NCBI GenBank assembly: GCA_030272585.1
Contig: BSYQ01000001.1
Span: forward strand, 2,852,001-2,916,000
Length of the DNA: 64,000 nucleotides
Direction of reading: 5' to 3'
Source: Bryopsis sp. KO-2023
Taxonomy: Eukaryota > Chlorophyta > Ulvophyceae > Bryopsidales > Bryopsidaceae
Part shown: positions 13,422-59,204 of the stretch, in pieces
Layout of the letters: every line of letters begins with the position of its first letter
Position numbering within the stretch: position 1 is the first letter of the stretch
Notes under the pieces: generated by a model
Told to the model about the DNA's origin: nothing
The model's input: the letters and a program-made list of their open reading frames with translations, nothing else
Database searches by the model: none
Made by a program: the position numbers and the translations under genes

Positions 13422-16156
13422 CTACCTCTGAGCAACCGCCCCTAATTGTGACCCCTTGTTCGGCCTTGGAGCCTCTATTAGTTGCATCTTTTTCGCTTTG
13501 GAACGCGTCAGCCTTCGAGCCATCTAACACACACACACACACACACACGCATGCACTGCAAAATCAGCACCACACTCGAATCCCATTGCAAATTTGTGAT
13601 GGAGGATATCTACTGCAAACTTACTTCTCGTTTGATTTTCCTCTTGCAGCTGATCGGCACTCCTTCCACACCGTCTGCAGGCGTTGCATCTCCTCCGCCA
13701 TCAACATCGTCCTTTAGCTGGCCAAACCTGATCAGAGGCTGATAAGCAAAAGGACGATCATGAATCGCTTCTCTTTCCGATGGTTGTGGAGATGTCCTGT
13801 CCCCCTCCATCCCCTGAACTGCATTTTGTGGGGTTCCAAAGCCTGGAAACTCGTCGTCGGTGGACGGGCATGCCGGTGCTGATGCAGCAGAAATCCTTCC
13901 CGGGATAGATGCCCCGCCATCGCTCGGAACATGGCTAGTCCCCACTAAGTTACGAATGGGGGAGAAAGGGGTATCCCTTGGGCTGTCACCGACTGCCCCG
14001 ATCCTTTTGGGTGGGTGACTGATTCTTTCTGCATCAGCTGAACTGGGAGCGAATCTCTCCATCAGCTCTGAGAAACTCAGAATTTCAATGGGGCGAGACT
14101 CTGCTATCGGTTCGATCTTCTTTAGGACTGGATCAAGCCCTGCCAATTCAGGACGAGGCAATTCTATGGCTAGCAGTTCACTGCAGGGAATGAATGCCGG
14201 ATAACGCACATGCCGCTCCAGAGACGTGCATACTATCGGTCGAAGGGGAAGTATAGGAAACAAATCGATCGGAATGGATCCTGCTGTCTGCAGGGGGATT
14301 TTCACCCGATCGATACACGACTTCTCCCCAGCCTCGGGGCTAACTCCTGGTCTTTCCGGGCTCTCCGGCAAAGAACCATTCTCCGCTTGCTGCCCAGCCT
14401 CCACAACACCATCGCTACATCCTGCTTGCACTTTTTGCCTTTTTGTCGAGGACCCCCCTCCAGCATCAGGGGCGATTTCAGAGCTTGGTTGTGAAACCCT
14501 CACGCTTTCGGTGCTTTCAGGGAAAGGTCGTTTCAACTTTGCGGGGGATTCAGCATGAGGTGCTGGCAGGGGTCCCATTGTTAAGGGGCTCGTCAGGAAG
14601 GGCTCATCGTCCTCCATTTCCTGGACAGAGTCAGATTTCTGGACATCAGAACAGGGTGTCTGGTTGGAGCACAAAGGCAACGATTGGCTCTTCTCGACTT
14701 GATTATTGTCACATTCCACTACCTCGTCAAAATTGTAAGCACGATCGTTGACAATGTTCATTCTTTTTCGTAGAACAACTCCCTGTCAGGACAGATCAGG
14801 CTGACTTCAGATAAAAAAAAATACTTAAAATACCCCCCCTCCCCCCCCCCCCCCCAAAAAAAAAAAAAAACCCTCAAAAAAAGGAGAAAAAATAGGTTCC
14901 ATTTGATTGAATCTTGATTTTCCAAAAATATCATTACTATGATCATGGTGATTCTCGAATCTTGCCATTAAATGCTAGATATCAAAAAACAAAGGTGGTT
15001 TCGTGAATCGGGGTAAGTTCTGTCCAACTGGCCAGAGGTTCATTTTTAGAATGGAATTACTCGGCTGGAAGTTCTAAAAATTACTTGTCTATCTTATTAC
15101 CTGGGTATAAAACCCTCCCCACAGAGTTTTTCTTTTTCTAGGGTCTCTGCAAGGTGGGGTGCTATCGTCTGAATCCCCGGAAGCACTTTTGTCAATGCCA
15201 TTTTCTTCCTGAGCTCTTGGTCCAGCGTCCTGGACGGCTTCCGCTCCATTACGTGTCTGAATGTCAGGCTCAGCAGGCGTCGCAGCCCCGAAATATTCGA
15301 CAGATTCCAGAAAACCATCGAGCTCCTCGACAGCCCTGGTCGCATCCTCTTCTCGCACAGGAGTCACATATGGGCGACTAACAGGCGCTGGTTTCTTCTC
15401 GATTCTCTTCTTGGTCTTGGCGCGATTCGTTTGCGCGTGGGTCTTATCCCGAGCAGCTGTCATTCGGTCTGATTCGTCGACGTCCGTTACACCATCAGAA
15501 TCAGAGCTTTCCACAGTGGAAGGTTCTTCTTCGGTGGTATCGTACCCCGTGCCGTTCGCCTCCACCTCAACGGCCTCATTTTTCACGGCAACACCCATGA
15601 AATCGTCACTCGAGACGTCCGTGATGTCGAGGACTTCTTTAACGACCTCCACCAATCTCTCCCTGGTTGCGAACAAGTCCACTGCCCCAGCTTGCCCTTG
15701 CATCCGCGCATTGGCTAGACGGGAAAACGTGCGACGAGACCTGCGCAACCCTGACGCCTCTGACGCCCGCTCGACACTCGCCTGCATCCTTCGAGATTTG
15801 CCACCTTTACTTCCGGCGCTGCGGATTTTCGTGCCAGCGGGTGGGGGTGTACAGAGATGCGAATCTGGCTTCGGGGTTGTCTGAGCAAAATCACACGACA
15901 CGAGAAACTTTCACAATCAACGAGAAAAACTTCCGGCAACAACGGCATAGACGAGACAAAAAAAGATGTTTTCCAAGCGGAAAAAAAATCCTGTATACCA
16001 AAAGGAAAGAAGAGAAAAAAACAAACTCACCAGCATGGGCTCCTCGACCGAAACTGTGGACGTCCTCCTTCCTTCTGGCGCGCCATTTGCATCGTCGGGT
16101 GTGACAGACTTGGCACCTCGCTTGCGGTTCGCTCTCTTTGCCTTTCTGGACGGCAT
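13422..16156 (-). CDS. Long, disordered, basic and Ser/Pro-rich, probably nuclear protein
   Basis: Four exons join in phase: 16156-16031, 15880-15101, 14782-13625 and 13523-13422, about 721 residues. The N-terminus is strongly basic (MPSRKAKRANRKRGAKSVTP), suggesting nuclear localisation. Next come a predicted helix (LFATRERLVEVVKEVLDITD) and long acidic/serine-rich stretches (VESSDSDGVTDVDESDR). SP/TP sites suitable for proline-directed kinases are frequent (TTPKPD, CTPPP, YVTPVRE, PERPGVSPEAG). A conserved-looking island, RKRKTLWGGFYTQGVVLRKR, spans the second intron, which supports that junction. The last exon is short and basic; its acceptor follows a (TG)n tract, so the exact C-terminus is less certain. 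I do not recognise the family. Chromatin or cell-cycle proteins often look like this, but that is only a compositional guess. Confidence 0.6.
13527..13549 (+). repeat. (CA)n microsatellite
   Basis: A run of about eleven CA dinucleotides on plus, reading (TG)n on the transcribed minus strand just upstream of the proposed last acceptor of the nuclear-protein gene. It may act as part of that intron's polypyrimidine/TG tract. Confidence 0.85.
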
Positions 16157-16816
16157 ATTGGCGTAACAAAGCGCGCAGCGCACCCTTTGCGAGAGTAGAC
16201 CGTCAGCTCTCTGGGCCTTGCTGACCAGAATGATCTTGACGTGCCAGATTACCAGTCCACCGACAGTGTCGGACACTGACGTCGCCAGCTCGCAGGCAAT
16301 TGCCTGAACGCAATCAGGGCGAGATTCAAACAGGCACCTGCAAAAAAAATCAGGGGTGCCACTGTAGAATCCTTTACACATAGCAGTGGATCTTCTTTTC
16401 CCTCCCTCCTGTTTGTAGAAGGAGATCACTTTCCCCAGCTGAGGCAAGCGGTGGCCAATCGTAGGTTCACAGATGTGTTTTGATAGGGGCTACTAAACGG
16501 TCCGCATGACCGACTGGGGTGTTGTGATTGCTCAGGAGTGTAGAACGCGAACAGTGAATGGGAGAATAATGTGAGGAAGCAAAAAGCTTGGTGCGACGGG
16601 ACACCGTCGTCCCTCGGGTGAATCATGGCCAGCAAATGCGTTTTAGCACTGTGTACGTTCGCTTTCACGTGGTGTTTCGAGCGCCCGGGTTTCTTACTAT
16701 CGCGCGCAAAAAACGGCTGAGAGAGAGGCGACGAGGAAAAGGGGGGCGAGTGCCTTGCAGTTTTGGGTTTTCCAGTAGATGTTTTGGGAGACGAGGTCGA
16801 GTGCCTGTAGCTGTTG
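16157..16816. promoter_or_regulatory. Shared intergenic region between divergent genes
   Basis: The nuclear-protein gene (start 16156, minus) and the HECT ligase gene (start 16817, plus) diverge from this 660-bp region, so it must hold both promoters and leaders. It is relatively GC-rich and contains CpG-dense patches. No specific element is called; this is positional inference. Confidence 0.45.
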
Positions 16817-18865
16817 ATGGCGAACTTGGAGAGCTTGTCGAACGTGGCTTCCTCGAGCGGGGTTAGCAGACACCTGGACAGATGTCAGGACCGCTGCGCG
16901 ACGGATTTAATAACTCGCGGGATTCCCAGACGGGACGCGGACTTGCTGGCGAAACAAATCACGGAAAATAAGGTGCAACCTCCTGTAGATGTCGAGGCCT
17001 TGTTGGAAGTGATATGCGTTTTCAAGACAACGCGCATCCCGTTGGCGCGAGAGGAAATGTACGGCGGTGTGTTACGGATGTTTTCGAGCACGGAGCCGCT
17101 GTATTGGACGTTCTTTAGAGGGGATAGCGGGAGGGACGCGCTGAGGGGGGTGGATTTCGAACGGCTGCACGAGTTTTACACGGTGCTGCAAGCCACCAGG
17201 GAGGAGGAGTTGTTCAGATTGATGATGAAATCGATACGGCGGATTTTGAGATCCGATCTTCTGTGGGGCAGAGGGAATTTGCCGCTGCTGATGCTGCTGG
17301 TGAACCCTTTGCTAGGGGAGATCGAATTCCGGTCCATGCTGCAAAAGATGTTGAAGCTCATCCGGGGCGTGTCCGGAGGGGCCAAGAGGGATTTGATCAG
17401 GCAATTCGCTCTGTTCGAGCAGCCCCAAATGCAGAGCATTCTGGAGGTTTTGCATGGGTATTTCACCATAGGGCTGTACCAGGAGCCGAATCAACAGAGC
17501 AGATTGGTTGATGTGTTGGAAGTGCTGTCCTTATTGTTTGAAGCGAACCAGGATTCCAGGGTGGTCAGCCACGAGGAGTTCTATAACACAGCTGTGAACG
17601 GGGAAGTGGATATAGAGGCGGACTTCAGGAGGTGGCAGCTCGGGGTCTCGTCGCTTTCCTTTTGCAATTACCCGTTCATTTACGATTCCGGGTCGAAATC
17701 CCAGATAATGAACCTGGAAAACAGCAGGACGCAAGGGTTGGCGATAGAGGACTGCCTGCTTCAAGCCATTGAGAATTTCGGTGACGTCAACGACATTGTG
17801 TGTCCGTTTTTGGTTTTGAAAGTCAGGAGGGGGAATAGATTGCTGCAAGACACCCTGGATCAGGTGCATTACGCGAAAAGAAGAAATGCCCTGAAACGCC
17901 CCCTCAAGGTGCAGTTCGTTGGGGAGGCTGGAGTCGATGAGGGGGGGGTCGCGAAAGAGTTTTTCCAACTGTTGCTACGAACGCTGTTCGACCCAAGTTA
18001 TGGGATGTTTGTTTACGACGAAGACAGCCGATTGTGGTGGTTTAGATCCTCCGATTTGGACTTATCTCAAGAGTTTGAGCTGGTGGGTGTGATTTTGGGT
18101 CTGGCAATATTCAATCACCACATCCTGGACCTCCGGTTTCCGTTGGTGGTGTACAAAAAGCTGCTCGGGTATAAGCCCGGGTTCGAAGATCTGCATCAAG
18201 TGTTCCCTGACATTCAGCGGAGCTTGAAGCAGCTGGAAGAAATGCCAAACGTGGAAGATCTGGACCTTCATTTCGAGATTGAGAGGGATTCTGGCTTCGG
18301 GGAAATGGTGTCTGCCGAGTTGATCCCAAATGGGGCCAACGTGTCTGTCACCGGGCAAAATCGGACGCAGTACATCCAGCTTTACACAAAGTATCTGCTG
18401 GAAACGTCGATCGAAACGCAATTCACTGCGTTTCGTTCAGGCTTCATGAGTGTGTGCCAGAGCGAATCGTTGAAGATGTTCTTGCCAGAGGAACTGGAGC
18501 AAGCGGCCTGCGGAAAACAGATTTTGGATATTGATGCACTGGAAGCCGCCACAGAATACCACGATGGATATTCGTCCTCCAGCCAGGCTGTGAGGTGGTT
18601 TTGGGAAATCGTCGGGACGTTTTCTGACGAAAAAAGGAAGAAACTGTTGTCTTTCGTGACTGGCAGCGATCGAGTGCCGATTCGGGGCTTCACTGCACTG
18701 AGCCCGAAGTTCACAATCAGTAGAGCAGGGTGCCACTCGGAGAGACTCCCCACCGCCCACACCTGCTTCAATCATTTGTTGTTCCCGGATTACCGAGACA
18801 AAACGACCCTGGCAAGATGTCTAAACACAGCTATCGACAATGCCGAAGGCTTTGGTTTGATGTGA
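16817..18865 (+). CDS. HECT-type E3 ubiquitin-protein ligase
   Basis: A single uninterrupted frame of 682 residues from ATG at 16817. The C-terminal ~350 residues form a HECT domain, which takes ubiquitin from an E2 on a cysteine and passes it to substrates. Visible landmarks are LKRPLKVQFVGEAGVDEGGV, LLLRTLFDPSYGMFVYDEDS, the catalytic-cysteine motif PTAHTCFNHLLFPDY (Cys about residue 650) and the C-terminal EGFGLM tail. The arrangement is closest in my reading to small UBE3A/HECTD2-like ligases rather than the giant plant UPL1/2 forms. The N-terminal 330 residues are helical with no named domain. Its lack of introns is odd beside neighbours with 4-17 exons, and may reflect retroposition or intron loss. 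Confidence 0.95.
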   Translation: MANLESLSNVASSSGVSRHLDRCQDRCATDLITRGIPRRDADLLAKQITENKVQPPVDVEALLEVICVFKTTRIPLAREEMYGGVLRMFSSTEPLYWTFFRGDSGRDALRGVDFERLHEFYTVLQATREEELFRLMMKSIRRILRSDLLWGRGNLPLLMLLVNPLLGEIEFRSMLQKMLKLIRGVSGGAKRDLIRQFALFEQPQMQSILEVLHGYFTIGLYQEPNQQSRLVDVLEVLSLLFEANQDSRVVSHEEFYNTAVNGEVDIEADFRRWQLGVSSLSFCNYPFIYDSGSKSQIMNLENSRTQGLAIEDCLLQAIENFGDVNDIVCPFLVLKVRRGNRLLQDTLDQVHYAKRRNALKRPLKVQFVGEAGVDEGGVAKEFFQLLLRTLFDPSYGMFVYDEDSRLWWFRSSDLDLSQEFELVGVILGLAIFNHHILDLRFPLVVYKKLLGYKPGFEDLHQVFPDIQRSLKQLEEMPNVEDLDLHFEIERDSGFGEMVSAELIPNGANVSVTGQNRTQYIQLYTKYLLETSIETQFTAFRSGFMSVCQSESLKMFLPEELEQAACGKQILDIDALEAATEYHDGYSSSSQAVRWFWEIVGTFSDEKRKKLLSFVTGSDRVPIRGFTALSPKFTISRAGCHSERLPTAHTCFNHLLFPDYRDKTTLARCLNTAIDNAEGFGLM

Positions 18866-20821: not shown

Positions 20822-23800
20822 ATGGATGCGCGGAACCACCAACAGCCGTCACTGGAAAGGAACGCGAGTGGGGCTGGTGATGGGCTTCACCAACGCGAAC
20901 AACATGCAGCAGGTCTCGGGGGCGGATCCTCAGAAGGTCCATTAAGAGAACTAAATAATATGGTCTCGGAAGTGGGAGACCCTTACGGCCTCGGTTCCTT
21001 AACGGCGACGCTGCAGATAGAAAGGTCCGAAAAAGATGCACGAAAAGATACCCATGCACCAGCATCTGTTCTTCTGGGGTTGTGCCAGTGGGGAAAATCC
21101 CTCCTTCCCCATCCCCCAAAAAAATCAATAAAAATAGTAATAAAAATTATTAGCATAAAGGCAACAGAAAGTGTTCAAAACATAGGTTTAAATTAAATTA
21201 AATTAAATTTTTATTTTGTTTTCCCTTTCTAAAAAAAATAAATGCTGAGAGGATAATTTTTCGTTTCAGATCAAAGGCAGACAGATGGATCTATCCTAAA
21301 AATGTACCTATGCGGCGATATCAAGCGGAAATAGTCGAAACGGCTATTTTTCACAACACGCTGGTGTGCTTGCCCACGGGCCTGGGGAAGACTCTCATAG
21401 CTGCAGTCGTCATGTACAATTATTACAGCTGGTTTCCAGAGGGCAAGGTCATTTTTGTCGCTCCGACCAAGCCTTTGGTGGATCAACAAAGAGAGGCCTG
21501 TCTGTTCAAAGTCTCTATTGCCGAGGTACGTGGATGGAATTATCGTTCGATGCTGTGCGACTTAAAGATTGGCTCAAAACTGTGGTGCAGTGAAATCTGT
21601 CTGCTTAAAAAACCGCCAGATATTCAATAAAATCTTTTGTAGAGAGGGAAATGAGAGCTGGGATCTAGCTGAGCAATGATTTGGATGCGGAATTTTTCGG
21701 TTGCTGTTGCAAGGGGAAGGCCTTTGTTTTGTGTGTGTTTCTGGATTGGAGTTTATGGAGCCGTGTTGTGGCTAATTTGTTGCAGCTGTTTCCAGTTTGA
21801 CACCGCAGAATTGACGGGAAAACAGAAGCCAGAAGTGCGAAAGGAGCTTTGGGAGAAGAAAAGAGTGTTTTTCTGCACTCCCCATATCGTCGCCAACGAT
21901 ATTGCGAAAGGTGATCCAAAAAATTCGGTTGAATGGAGTGCTGAATGATGCATAGACAGCTGCATGGGTGCTGGGAGTTTAGAGAACCGGCCAGGTCTGA
22001 CCCTGGTTTGTTTGTGCAATTTCAGGGTTTTGTGATGAATCGAAATTTGTCTGCTTGGTGGTGGATGAGTGTCACAGAGGAGTGGGGAACTATCCGAGCG
22101 TGAAAGTTGTGGAGCACCTGAAACGATCCAAAGTCAAATGCAGAATTGTGGGTCTGAGTGCAACCCCTGGGCGCACCAAAGAAGTCATTCAGGTAATGTA
22201 TGCATGGAGAACAGAAGCCTAAAACAAAAGAAATAAAATCAGATTTTGGCGAGCGAAAAAAAGAAAAAAATGGCTTCGCATTTTTATTTACCAGAAGTAA
22301 TAGAAGCACCAAGGGAGAATCTGTGGTGTTCTTATTGCTCGAGCAGGAAATCATCCGTAATTTATTGGTGGCGAGGGTGGAGTTTCGGAACGAGGAGGAT
22401 GGTGAAATTAAACTGCACACTCATGAACGAACCGTCAGGGCAATCACTGTTCGCAGCGAGCTGCAGCTGAAAGAGACCCAACAAACGCTCCATTCAGTCA
22501 TGAGAAGAGTGATTAAACCCCTCATCGACGCCAAGGTACATGCACAATGCTTCGGGGGGGGGGGAGGAGAAATGCAATTCTGGCCCGAGCTTTTTTTTGC
22601 CACCCAGATTTTTCTTTCCTGGAGAGAATATATGTTCAGTTGCTGTCCGAAGAAGGAGCCAAACCTTTTTTTTGGAAAGTTTCCTGCGGCTTCTTTCTTT
22701 TTAAACAAGAGTGGTGATGGGATGGAGCGGTGGAGCGAGCTCAGGTTCTGTTTCTGAGGTTTTCTTGTCTCCCGTTGAATCGCTTGGCAGGTGTTTTACA
22801 ACTATGATGTTGAGCGGATCACTCGATATTCGTTAGTGCGTGCAAGTCAGGGGATGAGAACAAGTGGGAGGCAAAATGCTGGATGGCTGCAGCGATCTTT
22901 CCAGCAGGTAAATTCCTTCGATAGCCGATGACGGTTTCAAAACACACCACAGAGAAGATGCTTGCTCATATGCTTTTAGGAGTTTTTTTCACTTTTTTTT
23001 TTCGGAGATATATTTTTTTTCCAGCAAAGGTGAACAATACTGTTCTCCTTCCCAAAGGTACATTATTATTTTTATTTTTTTTAAATTGTGCCTTGTTTTT
23101 CTTGGGGGGATCTTTTTCAGGCCATTTTCCTTGCATCGCTGATGGAAAATCTTGAGAATGGGATCAGAGTCGCGCACGAATTTTTGAAAACATCGTGCGA
23201 GGAGAAGCCGCTTGTCAAGAGCTTACTGTCCCGTGATCTTGAGCTCGAACATGTGGGTTTTTGTGTGCTCACCAAGAAAAAATTGCTCGTTCAGATACTG
23301 TTGTGTTGGTCCCCTTTTTTTCACAGCTGAAAAAAAAAACCTCTCAAATTACATTTTTCTTGATCAAAATGGAGCATGGTGCAACCCCACACCCACAGCA
23401 ACTCACTATGCGACTGAATACATCTCATTTCGCAGTTTGCCTCATTTATTTGGTTTATTTTTGGATGTGTTTTGATCAGTTGAGGGGAATGCTCGAAAAA
23501 ATGGTGAAAACGAATGCGGAGCATCCGAAGATGCAAAAACTGGTGGAGATTCTGACGGCCCATTTGAGTCAGGAGGATTCCGTGGATCGAGTCGTGGTGT
23601 TCACCAGTTTAAGGGAGACTGTGAATGACATCGTCCAAGCTCTGGAGCGTAACCAATGTGGGGCCACCGCCAAGAAATTCATCGGCCAGGGGGGGTCGAA
23701 AAAGAACGGTGGCATGACTCAAAAAGAGCAAAAACGAATTCTGCAAGATTTCCGGGATGGGAAGTTCAACACGCTGGTTGCGACGTGCATTGGGGAAGAG

Positions 23801-26800
23801 GGCCTCGACATCCCTGAGGTAATGATTTGACCCCAAATGATCTGATTTGAGTTGAGTTGAGTCGAGTTAAAGAACGATAGGTGACTTTTTTTTTGAGGAT
23901 GGAAAAACCATTTATTTCGATTCAATCCCTCGACTGCTGATTTCACAGGTTTCGTTGATCGTTTGTTACGATGGGGCTGCATCCCCCATTCGTGACACTC
24001 AAAGAATGGGTCGAACAGGAAGACATGCAGCAGGCAATGTGGTCTACTTGCTATCGGAAGGAAGGCAAAAGGAGAAATACGACAGAAACCAAGCTGTAAG
24101 AATTTCTCTAACGAAACATGCACTCGGCATCGCATCAAAAACGCACATCCTTCACTTCATGCCTGTGCATTTTTCCAATGATAGAAACATGTTGCTTGAC
24201 AACAAAAAAATTGACCTTAATCGCTTCCTTTTTGTTTTCTCGTCTTTTTTTTTGACTCAGGAGGCGTCGAGGCTCCACATGGTCTTACGGCAAGCGGAGG
24301 CCAACTTCGAGCTCAATCCAATGAACCCACGGATGATTCCACGAGAATTCAACCCCAAGATGCTCTTGGTCAACATGAATACTGTCAAACCTGAGGTATG
24401 GGAAGAGAAATTACATATCAGTGCCGAAACTGAATTTGCGTGTTTGCTTGGACACTGAAGGGAATCATACACCAGAGCTGGGAGGATTCGTTTTTATACA
24501 GTGCCTTGATCAACCGAATCAACCAGCCCTTTTGTTGACCCCCAGGGCTGTAACCACACACACCTAGGCATTTTGGACGTTTTACCCAGGACCCAGGACA
24601 TCTTGGAAATATCTATTGTCTGTGCGTGATTGTACTTCTCAATCCGTTGATGTATTTGTCGTTTTGATAGGATCTTCGACCTCAAGCTACTGGGAAGGGC
24701 CGGAAACGACCTCTGCAAAAAAACAGCTCCAAAGCAACAGGAAAAGGTGACCTCAGGGAGACATCAGCATCTACGATTGCACAGTTTCACTGGGAATCCA
24801 TTCAACAGGCAAAGAAGAAACGCGTGGTATATTTATGCCTGAACCATTGTTCTTGCATTTTCCTTGATTTCAGGAAAATCATCGAAAGCTGGATCAGGTG
24901 CAAAACAAGCTCACGGCACTGATTCCAAAAGAAGGCGCAAAGAGAAGTCTGGATCCATGTTTCTACAAGTACCAGACAGCGACGACGAAAACCTCCTTTT
25001 GTCTCCTAAGCCAGCCGCTGGCCCCAGTAGACATGCATATCAAACGGATGAAGAGGAGGAGGAGGAGGAGAAGAAGGAGGGTGAGGGGAAGCCCAATCTG
25101 GTGGTGCCACAATATGCCTCTGTGTGTCAGCCTCGGGAAGTAGACCAAATGGAGACAGAGGATACGGAAGGAAAACCAGAGATCATCGAGGATTTCTATG
25201 CATATCTGGATTCAGGTGATTGCCCAGGAGCTATATTCAGGATGTGTGGTTTTCGGAGACAGTAGAGGAGGTATACGAATTCACATTGGGGGTGGGGAGT
25301 GGGCTTGTCGCTCGATGATGTGTTTTCTGTTCTGCACTATAGATGTGGATAACGTTGGTGGGGAAGCGGGGGGTCCTGGTTATGGTTTCGATGGAGCAAA
25401 TCATAGCCGGGGGCCGATCTGCTTTGCTGATGAGAATGAAATCAACCCAAGACAAGGGCATCTCTCTGTTGGAACCCCAATTGATCTCACAGGTAACAGG
25501 CCTTGGATTCACTACTTTGAAAAGCACATTCCTTTCCGTTGATACGCTTCCTATGTCACTCGGCATGAGTTGTGAGTTGAAGGAACAGAATTTTTTGTGG
25601 GGGGGATTCAGATACTCCACCAATGAGATTTCGAGGTGCTGATTGCAAGCGACGGTCATCCAACGGCCATATCACCAAGATCAGATCAAATGACAACTCC
25701 CTCGAAAGGCAGCAAGGGTTGCAAGAGAGCACCCCCCTGGTGATTAAGACCGGCGTTGCTGAAGGGGGAGGGGTGGACAGCCAGTCCGGAGGCACCTCGT
25801 GTATCGAAACTGGAAAAGGTGGCGAGAATCCAGACTGGATGCGCACTGGACAGTCGAATGAATCTCCAAGGTAGGCCTTGGGCAATGGCTCAACATTGAT
25901 ATCAGATTTTTATTGGTTTTCAATTTGTTCTGATTTGTATGGTGCTTTCATTAGGAGCGAAGCGATGAGACAAGTGAGGGATGACAGAAATGATAACGCA
26001 AATCAATCCACCTTTGCAGCACCGGAACCGCCTGTCAAACTTGGACCGATGGAAGGCTCAACCACTCACAACGAGGACAGTTCTTTTTCCCGGGGTGCCG
26101 ACACCATTCAAGACAACTCACCAGTGAATTTGCCATTCAATCCTCCTGGTTGCAGCAGGAAAGACCTGCCGATGGATTGTGCCAAACACCTTCCCAGAAT
26201 GGAAAACGATGATCGATTGGGTGGACAGTCATCGGAACTGGAGCCAAAGCCTTGCACGGTGGCGGAACCACCATCGAATCGGAAGGATTTGCAACAAACA
26301 AGGTCTGGGGAATTGACTGGTGCACAAGGTTCCGAAAAAAGATCGAAGAGATTCTGGGACAGACCATCGGCTGTGAATTCGATCAAGCCACAGATCGAAT
26401 CGAAGGTCACAGTAGTTTGTGAGTCTTCCGATTCCGAGGAGATCGACCTTGTGACTCCATGTCACACCAAGCGTGCCTCCAAGGCTCAGGAGGTGGTCTT
26501 AGCAACCCCTCCAACGGTGACAAAGTCTGACTCACCACTGTTGAGATCAGGAGAAAGGATGGTGGATCCATCCAAGGGCTTGATTCAATCGAAGCCAGGG
26601 GGATCCCATGACATGGTCGAGAATTCATCTGCCCGACTTTCTGCGGATGGTAAAATGGGTGGTGTGGGGAATATCTCGACTCAGATGGCGGAAGAAGCCT
26701 GTTTAATCACGCCTTGTCGGAAACGGGGTGCATTACAGGTATCCGCGGACACAACTGGTGGCAGTTCAGCGCCTTTGTGGAATCACAAGCGAAGGGCGAC

Positions 26801-27931
26801 ACAAGGTTCGTCCTTTGTTTCCAGAGCCATTAGCAGATTCGATGCGTTGCTCCACTTCTGCAAGCGATCCAGTTTGTATCTTTTTGTGGGGAATCGTTTC
26901 TTTTCCTTGAATGCTGTAGGGCTGACCATCGACCTGCTTGTGCAGCTGTTGACTTTGGTCCTTCGCCCAGTGTTCTGGGAGATGCTTCTCAAGAAAACAG
27001 GAGTGAGCATGAAGCTGGGTAGGTTTTTCCATATATAGCTTGAACCCACCTGCCCAGAAAAACCTATGCATTCTGGCATTGATTGTTCGGGTTGGTTCTG
27101 TTGGGCTTTGTTTGTAGGTCAGATGAAGGGCGTGAGTATCTTGACTTGGAGGCGAACGATTCAGAGGGTAATGCTGATAATGAGGACTCGGTGCATGGCT
27201 ACAGTGACGAGGAGTTCAATGGTTTCATTGACAATGCCACCCAGCCTGCCATGATGACACAGAGAACCCAAGGGTGAGTTTGGGGCCAAAATCCCAATAA
27301 GCTTTACTGATTCTGATGCAAGCGACATCCACAAGATTGCTGGATCTTCCTGGTGTTTTTTTCATTCTGCTGCTTTTTGGATATTGCAGGTCCACCCCAA
27401 ACATGATGGCTTGCTACCACGAGTCCCTGTTGGCTGCCCAACCACCTACCCCAGAGTTTCTGAAAAGGCTCGAACAGGAAGCAAATAATCCGGAAGTGCT
27501 ATCTCAAGGTTCATGCTTTTGTTGAAACATCAAGGTTTCCACCTTAACTGCTTGACACCCGATGTCTCCTTAACACATTTTTCAACAAGTAAGAAAGTGG
27601 ATGCTAATATCCAAGTCCTGTATTTAGATGAGGAGGGGGCCGAGCTCACAGAAGAGATCGAATCGGAAGGAGGGGGTGACGGGGATGTTTGTGTCAGTTG
27701 TGGGCAGGGGGGTCTTCTACTGCTGTGCAATGCTTGCAACACAGCGCATCACCCCCATTGTGTTGGATTGAATGAGGTTCCATCAGGTGACCTTCAATGT
27801 TGCGACGCCAGCAGACACTGTGTCCATGAATACAGCCGGGATCTGTTGATCTGACAGATTTTTTGTTGTTGTCAATAGGGGATTGGTTTTGTCCTCAATG
27901 TCTGGAGGATGCTGCGCTGCTGTCCGAGTGA
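20822..27931 (+). CDS. FANCM: FANCM/Mph1-type DNA helicase with C-terminal PHD finger
   Basis: A superfamily-2 helicase of the FANCM/Hef/Mph1 family, which remodels stalled forks and D-loops and limits meiotic crossovers. The first exon (20822-21024, [20 protein letters not shown]) joins in phase to 21270-21525, giving [20 protein letters not shown] and Walker [10 protein letters not shown]. Later exons carry the motif II DECH ([14 protein letters not shown]), motif [12 protein letters not shown], the helicase insert, and C-terminal motifs [36 protein letters not shown] and QRMGRTGR. A long acidic, low-complexity region follows, including EYLDLEAND and [20 protein letters not shown]. No ERCC4-type nuclease or HhH module is seen, as in plant and yeast members. 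The last exons (to 27786, then 27879-27931) encode a PHD finger: CVSC, CNAC, HHPHC, then [11 protein letters not shown], followed by the stop. The helicase call is certain; middle exon borders are approximate. Confidence 0.93.
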
Positions 27932-28695: not shown

Positions 28696-31317
28696 ATGGC
28701 GGTATCGCTTGTGCTTCTTGGGGATTTGATGCTGGGCAGGGAGGTGGACTACGCGTTGGGGAAAGTGGGCGTTAGGCATGTTTGGGGCAACTTTCTTCCG
28801 CTGCTGAGTGGTGGCCAGTCTGAGCACCAGGTGGTCGCTGCAAACCTGGAAGTTGCGAGTGAGTGAGACGAACAACGTCCACCGAAAGCACCTTGGATGG
28901 TGATCGAAGCGCAGCCTTTCTGTTGAATTGTTTGCAACGGCCTGACGATTATGAGACGTCTCGTCATTTCGATGCATCCTGCCACTGATCAGTAAATCTG
29001 CTGAGGTTGGATGGCATCTTTGGCTGAACATTTATTGGGGGTGTGCTCCATTCATTTTGCAGTCACAGATGGGCATGATGAAATTGAAAAGCCGGAGAAG
29101 GGACTCAACTTCAAAATGTCTCCGGCACATGCAAGCGTGCTGAGGTAACATTTAATGGGGGCCATTCCCTTGGGGCAAATTGTTATATTGCATTTCAACC
29201 CAATCTCCCCATTAAGTAAAAATGAAAGAGTGCTAAACCTCCGTTGGATTTTCAAATGCAATCATCCCAAAATCGGAGGAAATGTAGAGTAAGAAAGCCA
29301 TTTGCGATCAACTTTTTTCAGCACAAATCATAATACCTGGATTCAAATGCGAAACATCAGCAAACAATCAACTTCCTAACGTTATGAGTTACATGAGCTA
29401 CTTGGGTGGAGTAGAGAATGAGCAGCTGCTTTGACCACAGATTGTTACTAAACATCGCTAGCTGCTGGGGTCCTGCAGAGTGGCGGCCGTGAATTACGTA
29501 TCTCTTTCCAACACCCACACCATGGACTTCCAGCTGACCGGCCTGAAAGAAACCCAAGATGTGCTGACGCTGGAGGGGATTGGGCATTCTGGAGCGGGGT
29601 TCAAAAAGGAAGCAATGATGCCAGCTCATGTCAAGAAAGCTGGCGTTGAGTTTGCTTTTTTCTCCTTTTCGGATCAATATGAAGAGTGGGCAGCCACTGA
29701 TGATGTGAGTTTTTTTTGCTTTTTTTTGTAAGTCATCCTTGCAGTGGGAAAAGAGTCTGCATATTGCTGGAATTGCCCTGCCAACGGTCGACTGTATGTT
29801 AAGGGAGCTGTGGTCTCTTGTCATGATTGAGTGTAGTGGACCGCCTTGATGTATATATATATATTTTAGGAAGGTTAACGTTAGCTGAGGGCTTTCTTTT
29901 TCCAGAAACCAGGCATCAATGTGGTCAACCTGTCTGACTACAACAAGGAAGAGTTGAAGAAGCATTTCATTGACGCTCGCAGAAGAGGAGCGAATTTCAT
30001 TGTGGTGTATGCTAACTGGGGCCCCAAGCAGTGCTGGTGGCCGAGTGAAGCCATCGTGCAGCTTGCTCACTCATTCATCGAGTGTGGAGCAGATGTCGTT
30101 TTTGGAATAGGAACGCACCACATTCAGGCAAGCCCTCCAGCCCAATACAGGCTGCAAATTGTTTTTCCCCATCTCTTATTGACATGCGATCATCAATTTG
30201 CGGGGTTATCACCTGTGTGTTTTTTTGTGGCCTCTTGTGACCCAAAAATTTTTGCCTAGTAGTTTTTTTGAGCCACAAAAGGGCCAAAACGTGTTTTCAT
30301 AAGATAATTTTGCGCATGCACCCGAAGTTTCATAGGAGTGGGGCCCTATCCAAAAGAGAATTAACGATTCCACAGAACTCACAACCAGCAGAGATAAATC
30401 ATTTGTGTCCGGCACCTTGAAATTTGTATCATTGAAGTTGGGTCCCCATTCTCATTTTTTTTGCACAAATTGGGGCCACAAAAAGGGCCACAACAAGGTG
30501 AAATAGCCAAATTTTGGGCCACTTCTGTCCCGGCCAAACACAAACAAACAAACACACTGGTTCACCCGAGGTATTTATCTGTTCAAAATGCTGTGTTGTT
30601 TGATGGTAGTGTGGTGTGGGTTTCTCCAGGGCATCGAGATCCATGACGATCGTCCGATCATTTATGGAGCCGGGAGCTTCATTCATGATTATGACATGGA
30701 CTTGGCATTCCGAAATGATCTGGGATTCATGTACACAATAAAAATTGTTGACAAAAAGCTGGTTGGGTGAGGGGTCCTACCTCATGATGGATCATTGCCT
30801 TGTTTTGCCAGATAATGTCTTTGGCTGCACCTGCCGCTGTGCCACAGTGGTGTTTTCCTTGTCTGATTTTCGGTTAATGACGATGCTCGCTCTGCTGTTT
30901 TCAGGTTGGAGCTGTCCGCCAGCAAGATCGAAAAAGTCAAGCAAGAGGCTGGTGAAATTCCACCAGTTGTTTCAAAGGTAACACTTCTTCCCTGTCCATG
31001 TGGTCGAAATAAAATCCTGAATAGCATGCCTGGTCCTTACCTGACAAACCTGGACTTTAGAAAAGTCCTGGTGTTTGATCTTGACCTTCTGAAAATTGAT
31101 GGATTCTGTCACTGAACTGTGGCTGTTTCTTGAGAACAGAGTTGATTATCAACTGAATTAAAAATAATATTAATTAATTAATTAATTTTAAAAAATTTAC
31201 AAAATATTTGAATGGCAGGTAATGAAAGCAACGGATCGGGACTTAGCGAGGGTAACAGACAAGATGAGGTCGCTTTGTCGCTTTTTTGGAACAAAGGTGA
31301 GATTTCAAGGTTCTTGA
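28696..31317 (+). CDS. CapA-like (PGA_cap) metallophosphatase-fold protein
   Basis: Seven exons join in phase: 28696-28858, 29063-29144, 29479-29704, 29906-30127, 30630-30766, 30905-30977 and 31219-31317, giving 333 residues. Motifs of the bacterial poly-gamma-glutamate capsule protein CapA family are all present: VLLGDLMLGREVDYAL at the N-terminus, VAANLEVAITD, VNYVSLSNTHTMDF (the family's N-H-D type site, with H and D kept), IVVYANWG (usually V-x-x-H-W-G; the His is Asn here), GADVVFGIGTHHIQGIE and RPIIYGAGSFIHD. In bacteria CapA/PgsA takes part in polyglutamate synthesis or export; eukaryotic members have no settled role, so the substrate is unknown. No signal peptide is evident. The fourth intron starts with GC (CAG|GCAAGC). 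Downstream splicing at 31294 (AAAG|GTGAG) is possible and would extend the protein. Confidence 0.88.
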
Positions 31318-42209: not shown

Positions 42210-42918
42210 TCAGATCTGAGGAGTGTCAGTAGGGTGGCTTCAGACTGCATTCCAAAGCACATGATGAGATTTCAGTCCGACGTTGCGCCAGCCGAAGAGA
42301 GGCATCAAAAACTGGACCCCTCATTTGCCACCTCATCCTCAAGCTCGAAGCTGGAATCAAAATTTTCGACGGCCCGGATTCCCATGCAAACCACCAGGCG
42401 GGCGGCAGGGCGCTGAGGCTGGGAGGGGTCGCATTGGCGGCGTGGGGAACGCAACCACTTGGGAGAGCTCACGCGCTCGACTCGACAAATGGCATGCGAC
42501 TGTGGACAAGCCAGGCGATTGATCAGCGACCGCTGCATTGTGGAAGCGAATTGGCGTTGGGAAAAGTGTGGGGCGGTGGGGTGCTTTTTGACGTTTCTTG
42601 AGTCTCTTTACGTGATAGGATTTGGGGATATGTCAGGCTGGCGGATCATGGATTCGAAAAAGCTGCTTCCGTTAATCTATTTTTCTCACATTCTTTTTGC
42701 GTACATCGGCTTTCAGAACTCGCGTGGGGCCAACCACGTGAACTGCTTCTGGCCTACTTATGATTCGCAATGGTCGGAACGGCACTCCTTCGTCGAAAGG
42801 GTTTGATGCCACCGTTTCGTGAGGGTGAAGGGCCGAAAACAAAACCGTTTTGCACGAGTATCGCGTCTTAATCAGGGTTCCACAGTGACAGTAATCCTCG
42901 TCGCGCCCGTAACCGACG
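42210..42918. other. CpG-rich region upstream of kinase gene
   Basis: It is GC-rich at 42.35-42.5 kb and lies between the minus-strand exons and the kinase start at 42919. It probably contains the kinase promoter and perhaps the start of the minus-strand transcript. No motif is called. Confidence 0.35.
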
Positions 42919-44924
42919 ATGGCCTGCTGCGGCTTCAAGAGGGCTTTGGTGGTGTGCGTCCAGATGGACGGCGAAGCCGGGTGTAGACCCGCCAACCGCC
43001 AATCTCTGGACGGTGCCAGACCACTAAGAGCGTCGCTCGATTCGCCGCGTTCGTCGGCTTCGTTGGCTGGTCAAGTCAAGAGCCCAAGGACCCCACCTCA
43101 GATATCTGCACGAGAAAGGGCCGATGTAAACATGAACAACGCAATGAAGCTACCCTGGAGAGCCAAGGAGTGGACAATCCCGGTAAAACCCTCCCCACCG
43201 CCCACTCCTCCTGTGACGCCTTCGACAGACTCATCGAAATCTGTCTTCCGCTTGTACAACTTTTCGAAAAAAATCGGGAGTGGTACGTACGGAACAGTTT
43301 ACAGTGCGTCGGAGAATGCCAGCGGACGGCATGTTGCGATAAAGGAAGTGGGCGTTTGTCGGAGTGGTGGAAAAACCAACAGAGCCCTCCACGAAGCTAA
43401 GATTATGGAGGCGCTGCGAGACTGCTCGTCCGTGGTATGTTTGCGGGAGTTCATCCAGGAAAGGAGCAAGACTGGTCAGGCGTATATCGTAATGGACTAC
43501 TGCGGCGGTGGGGACTTGCACGAGTTTGTCAAGGTCAGCGCGCGCGCGCAAGCTCGATGGATTTTGCTTCCTTTCCAAAATAAACTTCCATTAATGAAAC
43601 GCATTTCATGTGCATTTCCAATTGCAATCGAGCGTGCATCCTTCGACGGGCATCGTTCAACCTGCTCATTGACTTTCCTCAGAAAGAGCCCTTCTTTTTT
43701 CAAACAGTGGATTCAACTTGATTTGCTCAGTAGTAGTTTCATTTTTGCCCAGGAGAATGGAGTGCTTTCCGAGAAGCAAGCTGGGGTGGTGGCTTTCGAA
43801 GTCCTCAACTTGCTGCGTAGCTGCCATGAGAAGAGAATTCTCCATGGCGACGTGAAAGCTGCGAATTTTGTGATTAACTCCGAAATTCAGCAGCAGATCT
43901 TCAGGCATGGTCCCACGCGGCTCCTGCGGCCTGGCTGGCTAAAGGGTGTCGATTTTGGGACTTGCCAGCAGCTCGGTGAGTGCTTCTGGACGGGCATTGT
44001 GGATTTTGAGTCAGCTCGTGTTGATATTTTGATAAATTCTTTTGTGTAATGTGCTTTCAAGATCTTGTTCCCTTTTTTTTTTAATGGCAGGCAACCATGA
44101 TTCCATCATTTCTTTGATAATGGAGGAATTTTTTTAGGAGTGGATGAATTGGATATACCACTACATGTTTTTTTTCCAGTTTCCCCTTCCTCCCCCCTCC
44201 CCCCTCCCTAAAAAACAATAATAAAAAATAAATAAAAAATCGTGGTGTCCTTGTTTGCAGCGCAGCAGAGTTGCACCGAAACTCAGCATTTCGGTGTGCA
44301 AGCACTTCTGCTGCAGCGCAAATAAGGACACCACTATTATCATGGCCACAAAAATCTTATGTTGATAATATAAAAAGAAAACGCGCCGTACGTTTTCCAG
44401 TGGAATAGTTTATTTGTTGTGCAAAGATAAGGTGTTTGCTGGATCAGGCTGATCCAACTCCGAAATTTTTTTGAATGATGTGGAGGAATTTGTCTGCAGG
44501 CTACGGATGTGTGTCGCAACGGGTCGGCACCCCGACGCACTGGGCCCCTGAGGTCTTCGGCGGCCGCTACCGCACCGAAGCCGACATGTGGAGTCTGGGG
44601 GTGATGATCTACCAGCTGATGGCCGGTCGAAACCCCTACTTCACTGCGGAGGAGGAAGCCTCCATGAGAAACTCCAACGAGATTCTCAAGGCCATCGCGC
44701 GGAGAGAACCGGACTTCAGTTTCGGTCCCTGGCTGGATTGCAGCCCTGAGGGAATCGATTTCATCAAGGGCCTGCTGATGAACGACACTCAAATTCGGAT
44801 GACCGCGTGCGAGGGGTTGCAGCACCCCTGGATCAAAATGCACCAGACATGGAGGCAAAAAGAAAGGCCCTTTTTGCGTGGGAGCCCTGTGGAGCTCAAA
44901 GCATTCATCCCCTGTTTTACCTGA
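42919..44924 (+). CDS. CAMK/CDPK-like serine/threonine protein kinase without EF hands
   Basis: Three exons, 42919-43533, 43753-43975 and 44500-44924, give 420 residues in phase. After a ~110-residue Ser/Pro-rich N-terminus starting MACCGFKRALVVC (adjacent cysteines suit S-acylation), the kinase domain shows the Gly-loop KIGSGTYGTVYSA, the VAIKEV lysine, and HEAKIMEALRD with the C-helix glutamate. The catalytic loop is HGDVKAANF, so it is HGD, not HRD: a non-RD kinase that keeps the catalytic Asp, Lys and Asn. The metal-binding motif is VDFGTC (DFG kept). The activation segment ends RVGTPTHWAPEVFGG, followed by EADMWSLGVMIYQLMAGRNP. The pattern resembles plant CDPK-like/PEPKR2-type kinases. 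The protein ends soon after the domain, with no EF hands or autoinhibitory helix visible, so calcium regulation through the same chain is unlikely. Confidence 0.9.
44242..44334. ncRNA. 93-nt foldback in kinase intron 2; candidate miRNA hairpin or MITE
   Basis: The interval begins GTGGTGTCCTTGTTTGCAGC and ends with the near-complement of that sequence (GCGCAAATAAGGACACCAC). The two arms of about 40 nt pair with a few mismatches and a small bulge, leaving a 7-nt loop around ACTCAGC near 44281. It lies wholly within intron 2 (43976-44499). The shape fits a microRNA precursor or a tiny inverted-repeat element; I see no clear target-site duplication. The active strand cannot be told. Confidence 0.5.
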
Positions 44925-53433: not shown

Positions 53434-53925
53434 TTAGCTCGCCCCGTTTTCTCGTTCAACGTTGAACATGTCCTCATACACTTTGTAGTGGCTCGTCATG
53501 CCCAGGTCCATATAGGTCTTTATTGCTCGCTCATTCGAGACGTCCGCGTACAGTCGCAACCCACAGGATCCGTTCTTCTGCGCCTCCTTCTTCACATAGC
53601 CGTACAGGGCCTTGAAGTATCCTCGTCGTCTGTGTTCTTTAAGGACATACACGCTTTGGATCCACCAGATGCGCGCGTTTCGCCAGTCGCTCCATTCATA
53701 AGTGATCATCAATTGCCCCACGACGACCCCATCCAACTCCACCAAAAAATAAGTCCCTTTTGACTCGTCTTCCATAACGGCTTTTACACCCGCATTCACA
53801 ACATCTGGCTGCAGATCGATGTCCTCGGTCTCTTTGGCGAGCCATATGTTCATATCAGCCAACGCCTTCGAGTCCTCAAACTGCGCGACTCGAAAAACTG
53901 GCGGCGGCGGCGCGCTGTCTGACAT
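53434..53925 (-). CDS. GNAT-family N-acetyltransferase
   Basis: Intronless, 163 residues from ATG at 53925 (MSDSAPPPPVFRVAQFEDSK). It has the GNAT fold signatures: VVGQLMITYEWSDWRN (beta4), IWWIQSVYVLKEHRRRGYFK (beta4-alpha3 with the acetyl-CoA pyrophosphate loop RRRGYFK) and GLRLYADVSNERAIKTYMDL (beta5-alpha4). It would transfer acetyl from acetyl-CoA to an amine; the substrate is unknown. The WSDWRN...WWIQSVYV block is, from memory, typical of a bacterial GNAT subgroup, so horizontal transfer or an organellar origin is possible. It shares a 170-bp divergent promoter region with the ViaA-like gene. Fold certainty is high, substrate unknown. Confidence 0.9.
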   Translation of the reverse strand: MSDSAPPPPVFRVAQFEDSKALADMNIWLAKETEDIDLQPDVVNAGVKAVMEDESKGTYFLVELDGVVVGQLMITYEWSDWRNARIWWIQSVYVLKEHRRRGYFKALYGYVKKEAQKNGSCGLRLYADVSNERAIKTYMDLGMTSHYKVYEDMFNVERENGAS

Positions 53926-54095
53926 CTCGAACCCGCGCGAAAAGAAACGCAGAGCAAGGGGGACAAAAAACAGAAAATACAAGACGTTAAAAAAGACTGG
54001 AGACGAATGCTGGCATCCTGTACATCTCCCTGTTGTTATTACTGGGAACTTGTACGATTCGACGAGCCAAAATACCAGGTGGTTTCGAAATCGAG
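53926..54095. promoter_or_regulatory. Compact bidirectional promoter region
   Basis: Only 170 bp separate the start codons of the acetyltransferase (minus) and the ViaA-like gene (plus), so both leaders and promoters must lie here or overlap the coding ends. No TATA box is evident. Positional inference. Confidence 0.5.
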
Positions 54096-57000
54096 ATGTC
54101 GGGTGTGTTTCCGGCCACATTATACCGATCGAGTGGCGCTCCTCAAAATATAGCTCTGGGGATTATCAGAAGGCATTATGGCGGCAGGGTAAGTCCCGCC
54201 AGTCGACCGTTGTGGCGTCGTGCTGCTGGCAAAGCCCAGAATGGATCTGCATCGAGCGAGGTCCCTCCACCTGTCTCTGAAGGGCAGAGAATTCTCTACG
54301 AACAAGAAAGGTGTTGCTCACTTTCCTTAGTGTTATTTGCATGTCCTTCAATTGAAATTAAAACTGAGCTAATTGGAGGAGCAGTCTATTCCATTCCATA
54401 AGCACAGGGTGATTGCATAATCACTGCGAATTTCTCATGTAGGCTTGTTGTGTTTTTGTCTGTTTGGTTCAGCATCCTGAGAGGTGGATTTTCGGGTGGG
54501 TTTGGACACAATCTGTCGAGCGATTTGGTGGAAAGAATGCTGGATCTTCCAGGGACGCAAGGAGTGACCGACATCATGATTCGAACAAACGCGATGTCCC
54601 AGTGGCGAAATGCTTTAAAGAAAGGGTAATTCTCCTGTTTGGGAATCTTTGATTGGTTGGGGATGCAAATCAGCTTGCATGCTTGAGTTGGCGTAATTTT
54701 GAATTTTGAATGCAGGTATGTCCCTCATGCTGATGAAGTGGAGTGGCCTGCTGAGCCGTTTCGAAGCAAGTTTGCTGTAAGTTGCGTTGGATTGCATAGC
54801 AGGTTTCAATGAATGACCGGTTTCCTGTTGGAAAAAAATCCTCGTAATGTTGGCAATGTTTCAGGTTTTGTTTTCCCTGATCAAGGTTGTGTGGGCGTTT
54901 ACAGAAAACCTTGCAGGATTTGGAAATGCCGGGTTTCATTCGTCGCTACCCTGGCCTGCTGAACACCTTGTGCAACCAGATGCTTGACCTCGTTTATGTA
55001 AGCCTTTACTTTTTTTGTCTTTTTTTAACCACCCTCTTCCGTGGGTGATTATCAAAACTGAGACGCCAGCTTGTTGGATCCCCAAATTGTTATCAAACAA
55101 TCCCTATCCATAATGGGCAAGGTCACTGCTTCCTGAGCAACACTGTGGCTTCGCACTAACACGGTGCTTGTTTCGGGAACCCTGTGAATCTAACTTTCGT
55201 GTTGCGTAGAAATTTGAAGAGGCGTTGCTTGAGATGGAAGCCTCCAATGACGGGTCGACAGAAAACCCTCAAGGTCAGCCACAACAACAGCAACAACAAG
55301 CATCTGGGAATCAGGGTGATCAACAGGGTATGGAGGGGGCAGGCGATGGACCTATGCGACCTGAGGTACTTGCCTGCTTGCTGGGAAGAAGAAAGAATAA
55401 TCTGTTTCAACGAAAGACTGGAAACTCTTGGGTTGCAGGGTTTCACAAATATCCTGTGTCGAAAGGTGCAGATTGTCGGCAAAAAATGGAAGTCATGTTT
55501 GTCAAGCAAGCTGTGTGTATGTTCCGTTTTGCTCCCAGGATTTCACGGAGGAAATGATGAAAGAGGCTCTTGAGCAGCAGAACAGCTCCGGATCAGGCAA
55601 TGATGAAAACAGCACCGAGTTGGAAATAGAGCTGGAGTCCAAGGATGGTCAGATGCAAGGCGACACTGGAAGTCCGAATGAAAAAGATCAGGAAAAGTGA
55701 GAACCAGGGAATTGTCTTTGATGGGTGAATTATAATCCAAATGCCAGTTCAGTCAAAACGCCTGATCAGCCCACAACCGCATTTTCAGGGAAGATGAGAT
55801 TGCTGAAGAATTGGCGGCCTTGACAGAAGATCTGGTGGAGGAGTTCAAGGAACAGCTGGAGCCTGTCATGGGAAACCTCAAGAAGGCGAAAGCTACATTC
55901 GAGGATCTCGGAGGTGCGTTTTCTTGATGACAAGGCTGCCACCTTGAGGATTTTTTTCTTTCCCTCTCTCTCATTTTTCATTTTTTGGTTAGGGAAGGGT
56001 GTAGCACTGCTTGTTGCGAGATGGTTATTGTTGTGTCGTATGTTCTATTGTCGCAGAGCTTCTGGATGAAAAGAAAGGATTCGATCTGTCCAGCGGCATG
56101 TGGCAGCGCATTGGGTGGGATGAGATGGAGAAGCTGAGGCGAAAGCTACAGGATTTGAAGGAGTTGAGAGAGCTGGTGCGGAGCCTCGGCCGTGCTGGTG
56201 GCAAGGGCCCCATGCGAAGAGCCCCAGCTGAGGTACCCAGCGTTTTATTTTGACTGAGGGATATTTCTAGCGTCAAGCGCATCCCACAGGGATCTACAGC
56301 TGCTGTAGCCTTAAAGGATTCCTGCCTCCTGTACAAAACCGAGGCCATTTCTCCAGCATTATCAGTATGTCTGGTGTTGGGAAGAAGAAAAGCATGGAAA
56401 AATAGCATGCCAGAGGCACTTGCATGGGGACATGAATTCTCTCTTGACCTTTGCTATAGGTGTACAAGTCTGGTAATCCACCAGGTGTGATTCGGTCCCC
56501 TCTCCAGCCTGAGGAAACCCGAGGTTTGGCTCGATCAGGGGATCTGAGCAGGATGCTTCCAGCCGAAGCGGCATTGATGGCTGCAGGATGGCCGAAACAG
56601 ATCGAAGGCAGTGAGACTAAGAGGGAGGGATCCAGGGCAGCCCGTCTCCTTCACTTGGCCAGGAGGGCCGAAAGAAACCTGCTCAGCTACGAGAGGGCAG
56701 GCACGTTGTAAGCGAATTTCCACCTTGGTTGGCTTTCTTTGCCATGGTTGTGGTGTTTTGGATGATCTCAAACACGCTTCCTACTTGCTGGTTTTTGTGG
56801 AGGAAAGTGGAGGGGTTTGCATTTGGCGAACATCAACTATGATTTTTCATAGTTTTGAGTTAGGTCAGTGAAGTCCAGATTGATTCTCTCAGGTTGGCTG
56901 GATGACCAGCCCTCCAAGGTTCTCCAAAGGACCGAGTTTCGCCCAGCCGCCGAGCAAGGGCCTATTATTGTTTGTCTGGACACATCTTCTTCGATGGTGG

Positions 57001-58049: not shown

Positions 58050-59204
58050 TCAGAAACCATTTTGGGCCAACATGTCCATAACCTTCCCATGGTCCACGAA
58101 CGCTTTCGAGCCCCCAGCTGGATAGGGGGCGTCGGGCAGGTCGAACTTCACTGAAGAGCGCGTCTTTTTCGTCTTTTTCGCTGCCGGTGCTGGCGGCGTC
58201 GTTCGTTCCTTCAACCAGCCGACAATTTCGTCGAACACGATCGTCCGATTCTTCGGCGGTTCCTGGAGCAGCTGGTGTTTCATCCCCTCCATCGTCTTAA
58301 AAGTCTTGTCCTCCGACGACGCTTCTTCGTACAGTCGTCTGGACCCCTCGATGCTGCAGCGGACGTCTTCCGACCCGTGCAGTGCCAGAAACGGAAGCTC
58401 TATGTCAGCCAAATTCCCGCTCAGTTTTTGTAGCAGACCCAACCCTTGCAACATGAACCTGAGAGTCGGTGTCTGGAACACGACCAGTGGGTCTTTGCGA
58501 GCCTGCTCTGGGAACGACGGATCTCCAAAAGCGTCATCGAACGTTCCCTCGTACTCGTCGGAACGATGGCGAACGTTGGGAAAGAGCTTAACGAACGCTC
58601 CGAGCAACGGGAGGAGCATCCTGGGCGGCAGTATCCCTTCGCTGATGTGGAGTGCGCTGCCGGCCAAAATCAGCCCGTTGACTTTTTGCGAGGACCCGTA
58701 CTTGAGGGCCCAAAGCAGGGCGATCAGCGCCCCCATCGACTCTCCATACACGAAAACTGGAGCGTTCAAGTGGTTTCCGCGCGCGAAATCCAAAACAGCA
58801 TCCACGTCGTCGACGATGTCATCGAATCTTTCGACGTCCCCACGCAGTCCCCTAGCGCTGCCACTCAATCCTTGCGACTGAAGGTCAAAAGTGTAGACGA
58901 TGAACCCGTTGTCGACCAGCACCTTGCCGAACTCTTCGAAGTATCTCGAGTGCCACATTCCGCCGTGAATGAGCAACACAATCGCTCGAGGAGACGAGAG
59001 CTTCTGCGCACCCCAGCATCGCGAGTACAGCTCGATGCCTTGCGCGTTCGTCAGCACCGTGACGATCGCCCCCGTATCGTCGGGAGAGGTAACGCGCTCG
59101 CCGAAATTCGCTCTCAGCGCCCCAGGGTCCGGACGACGACGTTTCACTCGTCGAAAAAGAAAAACTGCTATTGTTCCCAACCCCACCCAACCGTACGGGC
59201 CCAT
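58050..59204 (-). CDS. Alpha/beta hydrolase of the monoacylglycerol lipase / lysophospholipase type
   Basis: Intronless, 384 residues from ATG 59204 (MGPYGWVGLGTIAVFLFRRV). The N-terminus is one hydrophobic segment followed by RRVKRRRP, so it is probably an anchored membrane protein. The hydrolase core starts IVLLIHGGMWHSRYF (oxyanion region). The nucleophile elbow is VYGESMGALIAL, the acid is in LALHGSEDVRCSIEG, and the histidine in MEGMKHQLLQEPP. The GLSGSARG and YGESMG patterns fit the serine-hydrolase 'lid' group (Hydrolase_4) to which MAGLs and plant caffeoylshikimate esterases belong; the substrate cannot be told. A lysine-rich tail (KKTKKTRSSVKF) follows the domain. Intronless like the HECT and GNAT genes, unlike the other neighbours. 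Confidence 0.92.
   Translation of the reverse strand: MGPYGWVGLGTIAVFLFRRVKRRRPDPGALRANFGERVTSPDDTGAIVTVLTNAQGIELYSRCWGAQKLSSPRAIVLLIHGGMWHSRYFEEFGKVLVDNGFIVYTFDLQSQGLSGSARGLRGDVERFDDIVDDVDAVLDFARGNHLNAPVFVYGESMGALIALLWALKYGSSQKVNGLILAGSALHISEGILPPRMLLPLLGAFVKLFPNVRHRSDEYEGTFDDAFGDPSFPEQARKDPLVVFQTPTLRFMLQGLGLLQKLSGNLADIELPFLALHGSEDVRCSIEGSRRLYEEASSEDKTFKTMEGMKHQLLQEPPKNRTIVFDEIVGWLKERTTPPAPAAKKTKKTRSSVKFDLPDAPYPAGGSKAFVDHGKVMDMLAQNGF

Follow-up and report, generated by a model that had tools for sequence, protein, structure and literature searches.

At this locus, a gene for a FANCM-type helicase and exons for a PHD finger lie next to each other on the same strand, which raises the question of whether Bryopsis sp. 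KO-2023, a species of a genus described as a giant coenocytic alga, forms a DNA repair translocase carrying a PHD finger of its own, and of what such a finger might bind. The window analysed (64,000 nt, C1:2852001-2916000) is part of a genome of 91.09 Mb in 28 contigs, and coordinates given without a contig refer to this stretch. As an overall explanation we lean, if only slightly, towards a FANCM-type DNA translocase whose C-terminal PHD finger docks the enzyme on chromatin or on a nuclear partner.

The helicase gene (20822..27931, + strand) was modelled by hand from the genomic sequence of this one species, with open reading frame pieces joined manually at GT-AG sites, and comprises 19 exons encoding 1319 amino acids. 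All 18 introns have GT-AG borders, and the frame stays open from the ATG at 20822 up to a TGA at 27931. The least certain parts are exons 1 and 11 and the boundary between exons 15 and 16, which were picked by phase and plausibility and are possibly off; the model has few alternatives for exons 17, 18 and 19 (27390-27508, 27628-27786 and 27879-27931). Exons 2-10 (21270..24395, +) encode the helicase core according to Pfam and PDB matches (DEAD at residues 84-242, Helicase_C at 410-532 of the protein), and exons 11-15 (24671..26805, +) encode a long linker without Pfam match. They are followed by an acidic segment (YLDLEAND...GFIDNATQ) in exon 16 (27123..27273, +), which may resemble the acidic motif conserved in FANCM tails, and by exon 17 (27390..27508, +), ending in phase 1.

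Among PDB chains, the best match of the protein is 'Fanconi anemia group M protein' (402 bits, E 2.9e-119), in line with a helicase core and motifs shared with animal and plant FANCM and with fungal Mph1/Fml1. The motifs PTGLGKT, DECH, SATPG and QRMGRTGR, presumably the canonical ATPase/helicase motifs, are intact in the model. Second ranks 1wp9 (272 bits), which we assume to be archaeal Hef and which is matched in a single continuous stretch from residue 83 to 553, while the remaining ones among the best 60 of 67 matches reach about 105 bits or less. The likeness to archaeal Hef extends to six archaeal loci with 30-36 % identity, i.e., all of the confirmed cases among 27 candidates from prokaryote genome contigs. 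Viral contigs yielded 12 candidates with the 532-aa helicase and 4 candidate stretches with the 109-aa tail as query, none of which was confirmed. Judged from these matches, the helicase core is of the FANCM/Hef type, with RIG-I and Dicer less close to it. An exon-level search of the genome, giving at least 16 matches, placed 9 of them, including all strong ones, inside the window, with the next one elsewhere at 42 bits; the gene thus appears, as far as tested, to be the sole FANCM-type gene of the genome, none of the other scored pieces representing a second copy.

Neither ERCC4 nor the MHF-binding region (PF16783) matched the 1319-aa protein (Pfam, E <= 1). For ERCC4, the whole genome contains a single match, on contig C7. 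Genome searches for PF16783 and CENP-X were empty, but their controls were equally silent, and an MHF1 candidate was rejected, since all four CENP-S matches were below the cut-off and the best of them overlaps an H3 gene. In comparison with animal FANCM, the algal protein has a PHD finger at its C-terminus in place of the ERCC4/HhH module. Archaeal Hef carries a nuclease module, which was not found in the algal protein, and is itself devoid of a PHD finger. To our knowledge, ERCC4 is absent from Mph1 and from land-plant FANCM, and the combination of ERCC4-like and (HhH)2 domains is not common to all FANCM proteins.

The sequence-only reading had located a complete Cys4-His-Cys3 PHD finger with the motifs CVSC, CNAC, HHPHC and CPQC at 27601..27931, right before the stop codon. 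All four motifs were found, and the exons at 27628-27786 and 27879-27931 indeed lie in this interval, the start of which (27601), however, falls within intron 17. Exon 18 (27628..27786, +) encodes an acidic lead-in and most of the finger (CVSC, CNAC, HHPHC), and exon 19 (27879..27931, +) contributes its end (GDWFCPQC), 9 further residues after the last Cys and the stop; the two are separated by intron 18 (27787..27878, 92 nt, GTGACC...CAATAG). In the whole protein, residues 1271-1310 match the Pfam PHD profile (PF00628) over its full length (1-47 of 47; 28.0 bits, E 2.3e-6), and a 72-aa piece containing the finger scores 33.6 bits (E 4e-8), the cut-off being 24 bits. The C4HC3 ligands display PHD spacing, with the aromatic W preceding the last Cys pair (DWFCPQC). 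Retention of the last intron lowers the score to 21.1 bits over profile positions 1-33, i.e., below the cut-off. Thus, splicing of intron 18 supplies the final Cys pair, and the splice bringing in DWFCPQC completes a real PHD domain.

Compared to PDB chains, the finger matches 69 distinct sequences at E <= 0.001, among them NSD2/3, CHD4/5, KDM5A/B, ZMYND8, PHF21A (BHC80) and AIRE; the best 60 of the 69 bear names of chromatin-associated proteins, as judged from the names. By sequence similarity, this set of matches is beyond chance. A genome-wide Pfam PHD search returned at least 22 matches, which do not include the intron-split finger of the window. With the finger as query in the same genome, the best of the 18 matches besides the two exons of the window itself resides on contig C14 (42 % identity over query residues 3-67), in an open frame that looks like a PHD/ARID protein (our label). 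With the best relative only 42 % identical, no close donor of the PHD finger was found. Matches resembling the last PHD exon also occur at eight places on contig C5, where those around 1.59-1.60 Mb (L028, G000:C5:1595000-1604000) are situated within a tandem repeat of ~6.28 kb (99 % identity over 2740 bases). In the repeat copy examined, one zinc-binding Cys is missing, and an origin of the finger from this repeated sequence was dismissed, as it offers no clear donor.

Whether helicase and finger form one protein depends on the junctions 17/18 (27508|27628) and 18/19 (27786|27879), both of which are GT-AG and in phase 1. The proposed in-frame connection of the last two exons with the helicase gene is thereby upheld, and the gene model of a FANCM-PHD fusion has good support. 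With intron 17 (27509..27627, +; GTTCAT...TTTAG), the distance from exon 17 to the PHD exon is only 119 nt, as compared to ~0.76 kb between the PHD stop codon and the start (ATG) of the PGA_cap gene that follows. The FANCM-like look of the acidic segment in exon 16 would likewise fit a single protein. With 22 PHD matches in 91.09 Mb, such closeness of helicase and PHD exons on the same strand is improbable by chance (~1.4e-5, calculated post hoc and from a count that is a lower bound). Intron 17 also contains an ATG at 27513, a potential start of a separate PHD gene: the frame is open from this ATG across intron 17 into exon 18, and the resulting PHD protein of ~108 aa scores 34.6 bits, no worse than the fused form. 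FANCM would then be read on into intron 17 as far as a stop at 27523-27525. Two such genes are, however, quite improbable, given that practically no space is left for the FANCM 3' end plus a promoter, and that intron 17 has GT-AG ends and its removal preserves the frame. Other features of the sequence carry little weight here. With 0.06 for the proposed frame of the two joined PHD exons and 0.107 and -0.136 for the alternative ones, codon usage fails to set the PHD frame apart and is uninformative as proof of coding, being neutral or even speaking against it. The splice sites of the PHD exon are ordinary rather than strong. A branch-like motif (CTRAY) precedes the ends of 5 of the 18 introns, including introns 17 and 18 (0.117 in random windows), and was discarded as weak support for the fusion. 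From splice phase and the 119-nt gap in the genomic sequence, helicase and PHD finger probably represent one fused protein formed from one transcript.

As to the ligand of the finger, we presume that the Asp contacting H3K4 is placed two residues before the first Cys. This residue is kept in the finger of the window (GDVC), corresponding to D489 of BHC80 and D297 of AIRE, which touch unmodified H3K4 according to the available excerpt of PMC3214078. The finger further resembles those of BHC80/PHF21A, AIRE and CHD4 in its C4HC3 ligands and gap-free core, but differs in having CNACN instead of the Asp-bearing R2 contact and in being joined to a repair helicase. In most H3-binding PHD fingers, as stated in the same excerpt, strand beta1 ends in an Asp that contacts H3R2 (D334 of UHRF1, together with D337); in CNACN, both of these UHRF1 positions are occupied by Asn (PMC3214078). 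The first H3R2 position is D, E and E in three other intact fingers of the genome retrieved by pattern search (loci L001-L016). Measured by the H3R2 Asp, assignment of the finger to the H3-reader class would therefore be doubtful. PHD fingers reading methyl-lysine require an aromatic cage including Trp, as far as described in the excerpted text of PMC3214078, and by this rule no cage Trp for H3K4me3 was seen in the finger, its only Trp being the structural one in DWFC. The idea of a K4me3 reader was abandoned on account of the missing cage Trp, and reading of H3K4me3 appears unlikely. Both H3 loci inspected in the genome encode the canonical tail ARTKQTARKS. The H3 tail reading put forward in the sequence-only reading is thus tentative at best, with the Asp for K4me0 speaking for it and the two Asn as well as the absent Trp speaking against it; specific reading of unmodified H3K4 has, in our estimate, a rather low probability.

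These same residues could also mean that the finger, though fused, is no chromatin reader but a zinc fold which stabilises the tail or binds a single non-histone partner, e.g., a repair protein. The replacement by CNACN of the Asp residues binding H3R2 in UHRF1 would agree with this, as would the plant VEL proteins, the PHD superdomains of which, in the part of PMC9640981 available, do not bind H3, such that a PHD signature need not mean H3 binding. The retained Asp for unmodified K4 and the chromatin proteins, by name, among the best 60 of 69 PDB matches argue against it, and we regard this reading as fairly unlikely.

FANCM protects stalled forks. In plants, it restricts meiotic crossovers (PMC5876677, excerpt). 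By analogy, the algal FANCM-type helicase may well have a fork-remodelling or anti-crossover role, its core remodelling forks and recombination intermediates like other FANCM proteins. The PHD finger would terminate a long acidic tail, which is probably flexible, and could dock the enzyme on chromatin via the H3 N-terminus or via another nuclear protein. Provided that the fusion is real, docking is our best guess for the role of the finger and is considered probable. Unlikely, by comparison, is the narrower version in which FANCM reads chromatin itself, the PHD finger binding the unmethylated H3 tail and steering fork or anti-crossover activity to chromatin devoid of H3K4 methylation. If the finger does dock the enzyme, its targeting on chromatin could be tested by moving or removing one 40-residue domain, and the protein would parallel plant MSH6, whose Tudor reader recruits mismatch repair to gene bodies (PMC12292046, excerpt). 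MSH6 is likewise a repair enzyme with its own chromatin reader, but belongs to another repair pathway and employs another reader fold (PMC12292046).

Other links between PHD fingers and the Fanconi pathway are of a different kind, as far as the excerpted sources go. UHRF1, a PHD protein contacting H3, recruits FANCD2 to crosslinks, but acts in trans and is not fused to FANCM (PMC4386029). The PHD finger mentioned in a Fanconi review belongs to FANCL, a Fanconi protein with a PHD/RING finger which is, however, a ubiquitin ligase encoded by another gene and with another type of finger (PMC2106361). No FANCM-PHD protein was found in the open-licence literature on FANCM, PHD, algae and plants, as represented by the partial texts at hand; relative to this literature, a PHD finger on a FANCM-type helicase would be new. 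It may nevertheless be an old, widespread and unremarked feature of green algal or even wider FANCM, which would be compatible with the docking translocase favoured here. Algal FANCM is treated in few papers, leaving room for such an oversight. Brassica FANCM, on the other hand, is described as having helicase, ERCC4-like and HhH domains and no PHD finger in the excerpt of PMC5876677, and a survey of fungi reports, in its available part, a conserved architecture among the opisthokonts it covers, FANCM not being one of the exceptions (PMC11061109), rendering a widespread finger somewhat unlikely.

Several further genes were recognised in the window. Upstream of the helicase gene and on the same strand, a 684-codon open frame (16811-18862, +) closes with a HECT ubiquitin-ligase domain at residues 387-683 (PF00632, 336.8 bits). 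Directly downstream lies a gene of the PGA_cap family (CapA-like, bacterial capsule synthesis) at about 28696-29730 (+), the joined pieces of which score 88.9 bits over half of the profile; it looks unusual for a green alga and may have come from bacteria. Two long open frames of 391 and 273 codons (13613-14785 and 15092-15910, both -) have no Pfam match at E <= 0.01 and are probably exons of one acidic protein. Open frames with matches to protein kinase (42913-44046, +), GNAT acetyltransferase (53437-54162, -) and serine aminopeptidase/alpha-beta hydrolase (58053-59243, -) are located more distantly. Scanning the window for Rfam families and tRNAs gave no hits. The segment 62001-64000 is unlike the rest of the window in its low G+C content (0.351) and strong skews (GC -0.362, AT -0.222).

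Elsewhere in the genome, the light-harvesting family PF00504 accounts for 107 exon-level matches. One fragment on contig C9 is identical in 121 of 122 residues to PDB chain 8hlv ('Siphonaxanthin chlorophyll a/b binding light-harvesting complex II, Bry-Lhcb1'), which we take, from the chain name and general knowledge, to originate from Bryopsis. Chain 9jzr_d is an equally good match, while the top rank by E-value goes to 9vfj_2, a longer multi-domain chain with lower identity. The light-harvesting matches thus point to a green alga of the Bryopsis type. Two pairs of light-harvesting genes are inverted, one at C9:482708 (+) and C9:551333 (-) with 168.8 bits each, the other at C1:4602843 (-) and C1:4606235 (+) with 125.2 and 125.1 bits; their equal or nearly equal scores suggest recent inverted duplication.
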